This document shows positions 1 to 2,440 of a DNA stretch of 30,198 nt, one piece after another. The notes beneath the pieces are model-generated. The model searched no databases. It was given only the letters and a program-made list of their open reading frames with translations, and was not told the origin of the DNA. Position 1 is the stretch's first letter. Every line of letters begins with the position of its first letter. The position numbers and the translations under genes are program-made. Location: positions 1 to 30,198 of the IMG/VR virus record IMGVR_UViG_3300005914_000052, one strand, 5' to 3'. This DNA is from a virus.

Positions 1-92
1 TTAAAATATTGAATGAGGTTTGTGATGTTCAAGCTTGTGTATGTAAGGGGTGTGATGAAGCTGTTAAATTAGTAGAATCTTTTATAACTTAA
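1..92 (+). CDS. 3' end of a small Cys-containing protein (partial)
   Basis: An open frame enters from the left edge and stops at TAA 90-92. About 29 residues are visible. They hold a compact cysteine cluster (CDVQACVCKGC) followed by a short helical, Val/Leu-rich end. The C-x4-C-x-C-x2-C spacing could bind zinc, but the protein is too incomplete to assign. The stop codon lies inside the 24-base repeat that leads into the next gene, so the two are probably co-transcribed. Confidence 0.45.
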   Translation, partial: KILNEVCDVQACVCKGCDEAVKLVESFIT

Positions 93-110
93 CTAACTGC
101 TATGGATAAA
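87..110 (+). repeat. 24-bp repeated start region, copy 1
   Basis: An exact 24-base match to 534-557. It covers the last 15 bases before the ATG and the first nine coding bases (Met-Asp-Lys). The core before the start is TTAACTAACTGCT. There is no Shine-Dalgarno sequence; two TAAC units end 8 and 4 bases before the ATG. Confidence 0.9.
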
Positions 111-518
111 ATAAAATTTGATAAGATGGAAGGACTGATGTTTGAAGATAATGGAAGTTATCGAAAGGTTTATTTGCATAGAACCAAAAAGGTTTCTGTA
201 CAAAGAATAGAATACGAAGATAAAATTTTTATTTACTTAAAAGATGTACAAACAGGTTCGGCAATAACTCATATATTCGAGCTTTTCGTTGAAAACAATG
301 AAAACAAAAAAAAGTGTCCTATGGAAAATCCAGATTTTATAAAGTGGTATACACAAGAATTTGAAAATAATAATATAAAAAAACAAGAAGAATCACATTA
401 TAATCCTCCATATATACCACCTTATCCTTCTGAATTTGAAAATAATAATATAAAAAAACAAGAAGAATCACATTATAATCCTCCATATATACCACCTTAT
501 CCTTCTGAATTTTCTTAG
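102..518 (+). CDS. Hypothetical protein with duplicated Pro/Tyr-rich C-terminus
   Basis: 138 residues, not recognised. The first ~85 residues are a charged, beta-rich domain with no motif I know. The rest is a 25-residue unit present twice in full, each ending NPPYIPPYPS, followed by a final Glu-Phe-Ser. The two units are identical at DNA level (357-431 and 432-506), so the duplication is recent or kept uniform. The Pro/Tyr-rich ends suggest an extended, disordered tail; they contain PPxY strings, but WW-domain partners are not expected in bacteria. The start follows the repeated TTAACTAACTGCT leader shared with the gene at 549, so both are probably translated under the same signal. Confidence 0.8.
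   Translation: MDKIKFDKMEGLMFEDNGSYRKVYLHRTKKVSVQRIEYEDKIFIYLKDVQTGSAITHIFELFVENNENKKKCPMENPDFIKWYTQEFENNNIKKQEESHYNPPYIPPYPSEFENNNIKKQEESHYNPPYIPPYPSEFS
357..506 (+). repeat. Perfect 2 x 75-bp tandem repeat
   Basis: 357-431 and 432-506 are identical base for base, and the next six bases (gaattt) begin a third unit. The unit is 25 codons, so the frame is kept. It lies inside the coding sequence at 102-518. Confidence 0.95.
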
Positions 519-533
519 CAAATATTAAATAAC

Positions 534-557
534 ACTTAACTAACTGCTATGGATAAA
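534..557 (+). repeat. 24-bp repeated start region, copy 2
   Basis: Identical to 87-110 and again spans the start codon of a gene (549). Outside the 24 bases the two leaders differ, which points to a copied or selected translation signal rather than duplication of a whole gene. Confidence 0.9.
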
Positions 558-854
558 GAAACACTATTGAAAATGAGCAAAGAAGATATTGATGAATTTA
601 TTAAAGAAGAAATTGGGAATGATGATTGTGATAATTGTATTAATTGCTATTATTGCGATGGGTGTGCTGATTGTAAAAATTGTGGCTACTGTGATTGCTG
701 TGAAAGGTGTGAAAACTGTTATGAGTGTTATAATTGTACTAATTGTTATAAGTGCGAACATAAGAGAAATTGTGATTATATGATTTTAAACATCCAACTC
801 ACCAAAGAAGAGTATGAAAAAAAGATGAAAGAACTTAATATTTTACGTAAATAA
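549..854 (+). CDS. Cysteine tripeptide-repeat protein (xxC)15
   Basis: 101 residues. The N-terminus (1-24) is an acidic helix. From about residue 25 every third residue is Cys for fifteen triplets in a row (DDC, DNC, INC, YYC, DGC, ADC, KNC, GYC, DCC, ERC, ENC, YEC, YNC, TNC, YKC), then a last Cys after EHKRN; 17 Cys in all. The C-terminus (LTKEEYEKKMKEL) is helical and charged. I recall similar Asn/Asp/Tyr-Cys triplet proteins in phages and low-GC bacteria, with the same kind of helical ends, but know of no function. A three-residue period would put all Cys on one face of an extended or solenoid strand, suited to binding metal or forming a disulfide ladder; this is inference. Shares its 24-bp start region with the gene at 102. 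Confidence 0.85.
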   Translation: MDKETLLKMSKEDIDEFIKEEIGNDDCDNCINCYYCDGCADCKNCGYCDCCERCENCYECYNCTNCYKCEHKRNCDYMILNIQLTKEEYEKKMKELNILRK

Positions 855-856
855 TT

Positions 857-1483
857 ATGAATATTATACACGGCGAATGCCTAGAAAAAATGAAAGAAAT
901 GGAAAGCAATAGTGTAGATTCTATTGTAACAGATCCGCCATATGGGTTGTCTTTTATGGGGAAAAAATGGGATTACGACGTGCCAAAGGTGGAGATATGG
1001 AAAGAAGCGAACACATACACCACATCAATGGCAATAAAAAAGACAATAGAGTTGAAAACCTTGAAGTCCTTACTATCTCAGAACACTTTAATAAACACTG
1101 GAAGTTTATCAAAGATACAACCGAATTGTGCGCCTATTACTATGGCACGTAAACCATTAGAAGAAAAAACTATTGCTAAGAATGTTTTGAAGTATGGTAC
1201 GGGTGGAATTAATATTGATGGGTGTCGGGTTGAAACAGGAAAGATTGATCAATATGATTTAGAAAGGAGAAAGGTTTCAAAATCATTAGGGAAAGAAACA
1301 AATGTTAATATTGTATCAAGAAATAAATATTTAAAGCATGGCGTACAATCCACTGGCAGATTCCCAGCCAACTTAATATGGTCTTGCAACGAAGACGAAT
1401 ATGTGATAAAATCAAGTGTATCAGAGAAAGATATATTAAATATTAAGACATATTATGAAAACAAGAAACCACAAGTATTATAG
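857..1483 (+). CDS. N-terminal piece of a broken beta-class DNA methyltransferase
   Basis: 208 residues. Residues 1-49 are the start of an adenine/cytosine-N methyltransferase: a typical opening (IIHGECLEKMKEMESNSVD) and motif IV TDPPYGLSFMGKKWDYD, ending at VEIWKE. About 43 residues then have no methyltransferase character; they are an HNH endonuclease fragment read in the wrong frame. From about residue 92 family sequence resumes (CAPITMARKPL, KYGTGGINIDGCRV, GRFPANLIW). The stretch missing between, roughly motifs V-VI, usually holds a PGG-type strand and much of the catalytic domain. The frame runs on 28 bases past the start of the next endonuclease gene before stopping. The SAM-binding motif lies downstream at 1961-2440. 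Activity is doubtful because of the internal loss. Confidence 0.75.
   Translation: MNIIHGECLEKMKEMESNSVDSIVTDPPYGLSFMGKKWDYDVPKVEIWKEANTYTTSMAIKKTIELKTLKSLLSQNTLINTGSLSKIQPNCAPITMARKPLEEKTIAKNVLKYGTGGINIDGCRVETGKIDQYDLERRKVSKSLGKETNVNIVSRNKYLKHGVQSTGRFPANLIWSCNEDEYVIKSSVSEKDILNIKTYYENKKPQVL
967..1152 (+). pseudogene. HNH endonuclease remnant inside the methyltransferase gene
   Basis: In the frame one base away from the methyltransferase, residues coded about 1003-1110 give an HNH core: SEHIHHINGNKKD followed by NRVENLEVLTISEHFNKHW. This contains the paired His, the central Asn and the final His of HNH_3-type enzymes. Only about 35 recognisable residues remain; a full enzyme has 120-200. Both flanks are gone, together with part of the host gene. 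The fragment's length happens to leave the methyltransferase frame open. I read it as the scar of an insertion followed by deletion. Confidence 0.65.
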
Positions 1484-1973
1484 GGCATTTTGGGAAAAGA
1501 TAAATGGGAAGAAAATACCAGAAGGTTATCATATCCACCATCTTGATAATGACAAAACAAATAATGATATTAAAAACCTTTTATGTGTATCTCCTAAAAA
1601 ACACTTTGAAATTCACCAAAAAAACTTTGAACTTTATGGAAACAAAAGAGATTACTTTTCAATGATGTATATACAAAGATACCTAGATGAAAAACAAGAT
1701 TTTAGTAAATACAAAAGACCTCCAATAAGTGAAAGCCATAGGAAATCCATAATAAAGGCAAATACAGGTAGAACTCATCCGAACTATATGCTTAAACACA
1801 GTGAGGAAACTAAGAGAAAAATGTCAGAAAAAAGAAGTATGGAGGGAACTTGGAACTCTACAAAGTGTAAAGATAGCGAAACTGGAATTGAATATAAATC
1901 ATTATCAGATATGGCAAAAGCAACTGGTCTTATTAGAAAAACAATTAACTTCAAAAAAAGATGTATAAGATAA
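1455..1973 (+). CDS. HNH homing endonuclease (HNH + NUMOD3 + NUMOD1-like)
   Basis: 172 residues. The N-terminal HNH nuclease has GYHIHHLDNDKTNND (His28/His29), Asn41 and His54 as likely metal and catalytic residues. Residues ~90-127 (SESHRKSI, NTGRTHPNY, SEETKRKMSEKR) look like NUMOD3 DNA-binding repeats, and ~138-168 (ETGIEYKSLSDMAKATGL) like a NUMOD1/IENR1 helix-turn-helix. This is the usual build of phage mobile endonucleases that nick or cut a specific site and spread by repair. It sits exactly between the two halves of the methyltransferase, overlapping the first by 29 and the second by 13 bases, in a different frame. There is no space for a group I intron around it and no in-frame fusion, so it is neither intron-borne nor an intein. 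Confidence 0.85.
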   Translation: MKTRNHKYYRAFWEKINGKKIPEGYHIHHLDNDKTNNDIKNLLCVSPKKHFEIHQKNFELYGNKRDYFSMMYIQRYLDEKQDFSKYKRPPISESHRKSIIKANTGRTHPNYMLKHSEETKRKMSEKRSMEGTWNSTKCKDSETGIEYKSLSDMAKATGLIRKTINFKKRCIR

Positions 1974-2440
1974 ACGAAAAACAATTTAATGAAATGCCAC
2001 AGGAATTAAAAGCTCTGTATGAGCAACTTCCTAATACTACTCGTGAGGAGGTGAAGGAGTTGTTTACTTATACGCACGGACATAGAAGCAAAAAACATAC
2101 TGAAAGCGACAGTTCGCTATTTGGGAATGGAAGGAAAGTAAAAAAATCTCAAAACGGTGGAGAGTCTGGCTCAGTATCCCGTTATTTCTATTGTGCGAAA
2201 GCGAGTAAGAAAGATAGGGATGAAGGCAATATACATCCAACAGTCAAACCAACAAAGCTTATGCAATACCTCGTTAGACTCGTCACTCCTCCAGGTGGTG
2301 TTGTTCTCGATCCGTTCATGGGGGCAGGTAGTACGGGGAAAGCGTGCGTATTAGAGGGGTTTGATTTTATTGGTATTGAAATGATTGAAGAGTATATAGA
2401 GATTGCGAAATCGAGAATAGAGCATGTTCAAATGGATTAA
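1961..2440 (+). CDS. C-terminal piece of the DNA methyltransferase (SAM-binding half)
   Basis: 159 residues. The family region runs from about residue 70: SRYFYCAKASKKDRDEG, then motif X-like HPTVKPTKLMQYLVRLVTPPGG, then motif I DPFMGAGSTGKAC and the motif II/III region GFDFIGIEMIEEYIEIAKSRI. Motif IV lies in the upstream piece, giving the order IV...I of beta-class N4/N6 methyltransferases. The upstream ~65 residues (FNEMPQELKALYEQL) probably continue the original protein. The start is supported by TAAC 11 bases before the ATG, inside the end of the endonuclease gene. A translated two-piece enzyme is possible, as in phage genes split by free-standing endonucleases, but the first piece lacks its middle. 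Confidence 0.8.
   Translation: MYKINEKQFNEMPQELKALYEQLPNTTREEVKELFTYTHGHRSKKHTESDSSLFGNGRKVKKSQNGGESGSVSRYFYCAKASKKDRDEGNIHPTVKPTKLMQYLVRLVTPPGGVVLDPFMGAGSTGKACVLEGFDFIGIEMIEEYIEIAKSRIEHVQMD

Follow-up and report, generated by a model that had tools for sequence, protein, structure and literature searches.

Pentapeptide repeat proteins such as MfpA and Qnr are assembled from a short tandem unit and fold as a right-handed quadrilateral β-helix. In the beetle antifreeze protein TmAFP (1EZG), a β-helix of 12-residue TCTxSxNCxxAx coils, residues 2, 5, 8, and 11 of each coil face inward (PMC8038014). The only described family of Cys-Xaa-Xaa repeats is that of the heterocycloanthracin-type bacteriocin precursors (PMC2674419). 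Phage proteins with Cys at every third position, referred to here as xxC arrays, are collected in PHROG 15341, whose function is annotated as "unknown," and a literature search found no paper on an xxC-repeat phage protein.

The window analyzed here is the whole 30,198-nucleotide stretch of the virus record IMGVR_UViG_3300005914_000052, a low-GC (34%) tailed-phage fragment that carries portal, major head, terminase, tape-measure, and endolysin genes on its minus strand. The plus strand carries an xxC gene, preceded by an unknown 138-amino-acid ORF and followed by a DNA methyltransferase gene, which starts two bases past the xxC stop codon. The features of the locus are as follows.

87-110, plus strand: 24-nt start region ACTTAACTAACTGCTATGGATAAA of the preceding ORF, identical to 534-557
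534-557, plus strand: 24-nt start region ACTTAACTAACTGCTATGGATAAA of the xxC gene, identical to 87-110
549-854, plus strand: complete xxC-array gene, 101 amino acids; an ORF with relatives that have the same caps
549-620, plus strand: N-cap, residues 1-24, KETLLKMSKEDIDEF, predicted helix; conserved in relatives, AlphaFold2 helices at residues 3-8 and 11-20
621-755, plus strand: xxC array, fifteen triplets at residues 25-69; residues 26-76 match PHROG 15341, AlphaFold2 strands every 6 residues
756-851, plus strand: C-cap, residues 70-101, EHKRNCDYMILNIQLTKEEYEKKMKEL, strand plus helix; alignment of relatives, AlphaFold2 helix at residues 86-95

Translation of the complete ORF, from ATG to TAA, confirmed the run of fifteen xxC triplets and the 17 Cys in 101 residues reported in the original prediction. 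The triplets occupy residues 25 to 69 without interruption (DDC DNC INC YYC DGC ADC KNC GYC DCC ERC ENC YEC YNC TNC YKC), and the two Cys outside this lattice are found within DCC and downstream in RNC. The probability that fifteen Cys in a row fall in register in a 101-residue protein with 17 Cys is about 1e-10; six TGY codons at 9-base spacing occurred in none of the shuffled windows, and the real window yielded ten overlapping matches. The codons of the repeat do vary, as originally observed (TGT 13, TGC 4, AAT 8, AAC 2), and Tandem Repeats Finder detected only two to three copies of 9-bp repetition in the gene, so the pattern sits in the protein and is not a recent microsatellite. Where two charged helices were proposed to flank the array, the N-cap is helical and the C-cap a strand plus a helix. 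The 549-854 array is the only one found in the 30-kb record.

Several other features of the neighborhood were recorded. The ACTTAACTAACTGCTATGGATAAA start regions stand ahead of two unrelated ORFs, and no copies beyond those at 87-110 and 534-557 are present in the window. Within the ORF at 102-518, an exact 75-nt tandem duplication (357-506, plus strand) produces two copies of EFENNNIKKQEESHYNPPYIPPYPS. The N6/N4 DNA methyltransferase gene (857-2440, plus strand; PF01555, phrog_67) is in two parts, 857-1483 and 1961-2440, interrupted by an HNH endonuclease ORF at 1455-1973, and the N-terminal half of the methyltransferase gene contains another HNH-like reading frame (967-1152); no Rfam intron match was found at the split gene.

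The window protein has no match in Pfam or NCBIfam. It matches the PHROG 15341 profile over residues 26 to 76 (E=5.1e-7; E=2e-9 in a one-genome search), starting at profile position 38. The type-B N-cap (D-x-NNNxW ... A ... S-x-L) is absent ahead of the window array, which is preceded instead by a type-A N-cap, KETLLKMSKED; judged by these sequences, its apparent kinship to PHROG 15341 is via the array only. Closer relatives, 30 to 48% identical to the window protein and sharing both its N-cap and C-cap, were found at L131 (two tandem copies), L248 to L251, L264 (three paralogs), and L058 (two), with arrays of 15 to 36 triplets. The window protein likewise combines the N-cap, the array, and the C-cap YxIxNIQ[LF]TxEEYEKKM in one ORF. 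In an alignment of 12 such cap-A sequences, T85, E88, Y89, and the array Cys are invariant and N81 nearly so, and the caps are kept at the protein level between unrelated phages.

To place these proteins in a wider set, viral contigs were scanned for nine in-register TGY codons, which returned at least 120 stretches, often frame shadows; many raw pattern matches elsewhere were likewise discarded as frame shadows of simple repeats. After an automatic filter, 17 of the 120 viral stretches retained a real-looking array versus 1 of 116 genome stretches, and the sole genome-side array was of the bacteriocin-precursor type. A tblastn search of phages with Cys-rich queries gave no match, for which the low-complexity filter is probably responsible, and no defense-system match was obtained. 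The xxC family is mostly viral, with 10 to 85 triplets per array and lengths that vary by single triplets. The search for other (xxC)n proteins suggested at the outset led to a large phage family with up to about 15 copies per genome, and the original remark on similar triplet proteins lacking a function is borne out by PHROG 15341. The product of 549-854 is a real, selected protein with relatives and not a lone curiosity.

Three further sets of proteins were encountered in this search. Two related phages with another cap type (G002 and G014; L255 to L261) contain dispersed array matches, about 10 in one and about 15 in the other, and among their apparent counterparts the outward residues change faster than synonymous sites (dN/dS >1), a ratio left uninterpreted because repeat shuffling breaks codon homology; the change may reflect diversification or repeat shuffling. 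A Cys-rich non-xxC protein at L374:5928-5954 terminates in KQYCILNKQYTKEEYEEIL, strikingly like the window C-cap YMILNIQLTKEEYEKKM, which suggests from sequence resemblance that the C-cap may be common to another Cys-rich family. In Mycobacterium MAGs (L220 and L244), 12-residue GSxATxGSAxVA repeats are followed by about 12 xxC triplets; these bacterial proteins form a separate family with a terminal Cys array.

The relatives do not have the irregular Cys spacing that the original prediction had named as counterevidence, since 1,336 of 1,370 Cys-Cys intervals are exactly 3. The off-3 intervals comprise eight 2+1 pairs, in which an extra Cys lies inside a triplet, 12 single substitutions, and six one-residue insertions. 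Family-wide, Cys occupies 1,649 of 1,666 core positions (99.0%), the remainder being Ser (10), Leu (3), Phe (2), Arg (1), and Tyr (1); for comparison, the core of pentapeptide arrays is Leu at 662 of 737 positions (90%). This near-total strictness suggests that thiol chemistry may matter beyond packing. The outward pair favors Ser at its first position (37%) and Asp/Asn at its second (49%). When Cys numbers were examined modulo 2, 3, or 4, no preference for even counts or multiples of four emerged, a result that argues mildly against any fixed stoichiometry of metal or disulfides.

Members of the family in cultured Campylobacter phages were reached by DNA blastn. The xxC gene lies between portal (gp20) and DNA ligase (gp30) in CC_R7, WX1, IBB_35, CP21, CP220, F379, and CPt10, with an array length that varies widely, and these genes are annotated as "hypothetical," the F379 copy (QOI69496.1) as "cysteine rich." PHROG 15341 members in the Firehammervirus group include CC_R7 XLL17427.1 (E=7e-74 against the profile), IBB_35 AEI88196.1, and F379 QOI69496.1. 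Selection on the protein, proposed originally from codon variation, is upheld by a dN/dS of 0.11 to 0.25 among these orthologs and by the retention of Cys despite synonymous codon switches: CC_R7 and WX1 share 62 of 63 Cys, and 15 of those 62 codons differ synonymously (TGT/TGC). The copies in CPt10 and CJLB-12 have an in-array stop and that in CJLB-14 a frameshift, so propagation apparently does not require the gene; the broken copies indicate an accessory gene. For IBB_35, virion proteomics gives 38 structural proteins.

A further architecture was observed in a sister branch, where some xxC proteins end in a phrog_31265 domain (type IHKxIYxAxSxPxALDMxxWHxCxxTHCRAGW; function "unknown"). Among 77 viral phrog_31265-domain proteins, the repeat in the same ORF is xxC in 27, the pentapeptide A[DN]LxX in 43, another kind in 4, and cut in 3. 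An N-cap, WxxDxNGNxxSVxxxGSxExAxxALxSL, was detected in over half of the proteins with xxC arrays in this set and in none of the pentapeptide ones, and no type-B N-cap lacking xxC occurred among 12 confirmed loci. Read plainly, these sequences would represent a repeat-specific cap, a solenoid of either kind, and a shared domain, and the swap of arrays points to an interchangeable β-solenoid. The swap itself is seen in the sister branch, whose cap type differs from that of the window protein, and would carry over to the window protein on the strength of the identical array. The same domain also stands behind STVDRVLSIASD 12-mers, ALPALTSIGGYADLRGYTH units, and RRGPEK 6-mers (L320, L336, L341, and L343), so phrog_31265 is a domain placed behind many different repeat rods.

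In structure prediction, one of the checks proposed originally, AlphaFold2 placed, for the window family, 3-residue strands every 6 residues in the array (pLDDT about 60) and helices outside it at residues 3 to 8, 11 to 20, and 86 to 95, but the model is weak (mean pLDDT 62.5, pTM 0.46) and had no Foldseek match in the PDB. The array of a longer relative did not fold. Foldseek against BFVD gave nothing significant; the top entry (E about 1) came from IBB_35, an xxC-carrying phage. The best PDB sequence match of a long array was TmAFP 1EZG, with an E=1.4e-4 that is composition-inflated (bias of 36 bits versus a score of 24 bits), and the same entry was also listed for the window family at E=0.17 and E=1.8. 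The inward positions of TmAFP coincide exactly with the register of xxC arrays, a resemblance for which no homology is claimed. A triplet autocorrelation at lag 4 (z=4), a hint of a 12-residue coil, disappeared in a pooled phase test. Because pooled testing found no period beyond the triplet, coil size is not fixed by the sequence. The solenoid, one of several options raised originally, is the best-supported fold, based on the domain swap, the cap pattern, and the TmAFP match; the analysis yielded nothing positive for disulfides, metal storage, or redox control, the other ideas put forward there.

On balance, we consider it probable that the window gene encodes a small accessory phage protein in which a Cys-cored, short-repeat β-solenoid serves as a binding scaffold. 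The middle of the protein would fold as a β-solenoid of xxC tripeptides, with the Cys, the third residue of each triplet, pointing to the core and the two other residues outward. The likely geometry is TmAFP-like, with 12 residues and four triplets per turn, the inward Ser/Ala also having become Cys, and the type-specific N-cap and C-cap would close the ends of the solenoid. The number of triplets (10 to 85 in the family) may set the length of the rod, which could be tuned by single triplets, and the outward residues would form the binding surface for a partner. Such a rigid, easily lengthened scaffold could bind another macromolecule in the infected cell, either a host target or a phage partner, and may play in these phages the role that pentapeptide-repeat helices have in others. 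We infer the β-solenoid fold, its coil size, the reduced state of the thiol core, and the intracellular binding role from the observations above.

Alternatively, the Cys could bind Zn, Cu(I), Fe, or Fe-S clusters, so that inside the infected cell the product would act as a metal-thiolate store or sink or as a redox element. This reading is unlikely: 17 Cys in 101 residues, a core Cys stricter than the Leu of pentapeptide cores (99.0% versus 90%), and weak PDB sequence matches to CXXC zinc fingers speak for it. However, even numbers and multiples of four are not overrepresented among the Cys counts, array length changes in steps of a single triplet, core positions accept Ser, Leu, and Phe, the arrays swap with metal-free pentapeptide arrays, and no metal-handling gene name appeared among those neighbors of cap-A arrays that were examined. 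The more specific proposal of a cysteine-lined tube, whose stacked thiols would hold metal or pass electrons as a metal-thiolate wire or sink acting on host metal or redox state and would make the protein a phage effector of a new type, is less probable still.

A DNA or RNA mimic, in which an acidic rod would occupy a DNA-binding protein, for example gyrase, a restriction enzyme, or a defense enzyme, in the manner of MfpA and Qnr, is similarly doubtful. Pentapeptide proteins of similar design include gyrase-binding DNA mimics (PMC8145042), the window array has a charge of -6 over 15 triplets, other cap-A arrays range from -0.14 to -0.52 per triplet with one neutral, and the window, L249, and L252 have methyltransferase genes in the vicinity. 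Such genes are widespread in phages, however, and family-wide the charge is near neutral (mean of -0.15 per triplet; 56 of 76 arrays carry a negative charge). These near-neutral arrays weaken the case for a general DNA mimic, although the cap family of the window is more acidic.

In a disulfide-ladder rod, the Cys would form pairs across the coil, like those of beetle antifreeze proteins, and the protein would function in oxidized form, either extracellularly or as part of the virion. TmAFP, which is the nearest fold analogue and gave the best PDB sequence match, does have one disulfide per coil (PMC8038014). Yet a signal peptide is absent from the window protein sequence, the bacterial cytosol is reducing, and even Cys numbers are not preferred, making this arrangement improbable.

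A thiazole-modified peptide precursor, that is, a bacteriocin of the heterocycloanthracin Cys-Xaa-Xaa type, is largely refuted and must be regarded as extremely unlikely despite the triplet-wise length variation in common. TIGR03601 matched none of the phage members, while two bacterial controls matched below the curated cutoff. The YcaO cyclodehydratase was found in 0 of 17 phage records, which include five complete or near-complete Campylobacter phages and a window record that may be a fragment, and the array is followed by a conserved C-cap, which such precursors do not have. Just as unlikely is a spurious frame generated as a by-product of the expansion of a selfish 9-bp repeat: copy number changes readily, broken copies occur in some Campylobacter phages, and many raw matches elsewhere are simple-repeat frame shadows, but dN/dS is 0.11 to 0.25 with Cys kept through synonymous change, the caps are conserved as protein in unrelated phages, and DNA-level repetition in the window is scant.

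If the binding-scaffold reading is correct, xxC would be among the shortest solenoid repeat units, with an all-cysteine core, in a protein scaffold extendable by single triplets, a building block that phages use interchangeably with pentapeptide repeats. PHROG 15341 would also gain its first structural and functional hypothesis, and the cultured Campylobacter phages offer a testable family, with long, short, and naturally broken versions at one fixed locus.

Compared with described systems, the window protein has an xxC array on the same lattice as PHROG 15341 but differs in its N-cap and C-cap (both type A) and in its far shorter array. Pentapeptide repeat proteins have a similar small-[D/N]-core pattern (A[DN]L versus S[DN]C in xxC), share the short tandem unit, and in the sister branch are fused to the same C-terminal domain, whereas the xxC unit is 3 residues and not 5, its core is Cys and not Leu/Phe, and its N-cap is another; the window protein contains no run of eight or more A(D/N)LXX pentapeptides in a row and has no Pfam pentapeptide match. 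TmAFP has Asn before Cys as well and, on the proposed fold, would be alike in its inward-facing every third residue and its core Cys; however, it has Cys at only every second inward residue, is secreted and disulfide bonded, and carries ice-binding TxT ranks that are absent from xxC arrays. Heterocycloanthracin/sonorensin precursors (TIGR03601) resemble the phage proteins in having Cys-Xaa-Xaa repeats that vary by whole triplets, but the phages lack the leader match and the YcaO enzyme. The xxC proteins are best filed as a real, selected repeat family that fits the short-repeat solenoid kind, with a putative fold and target.
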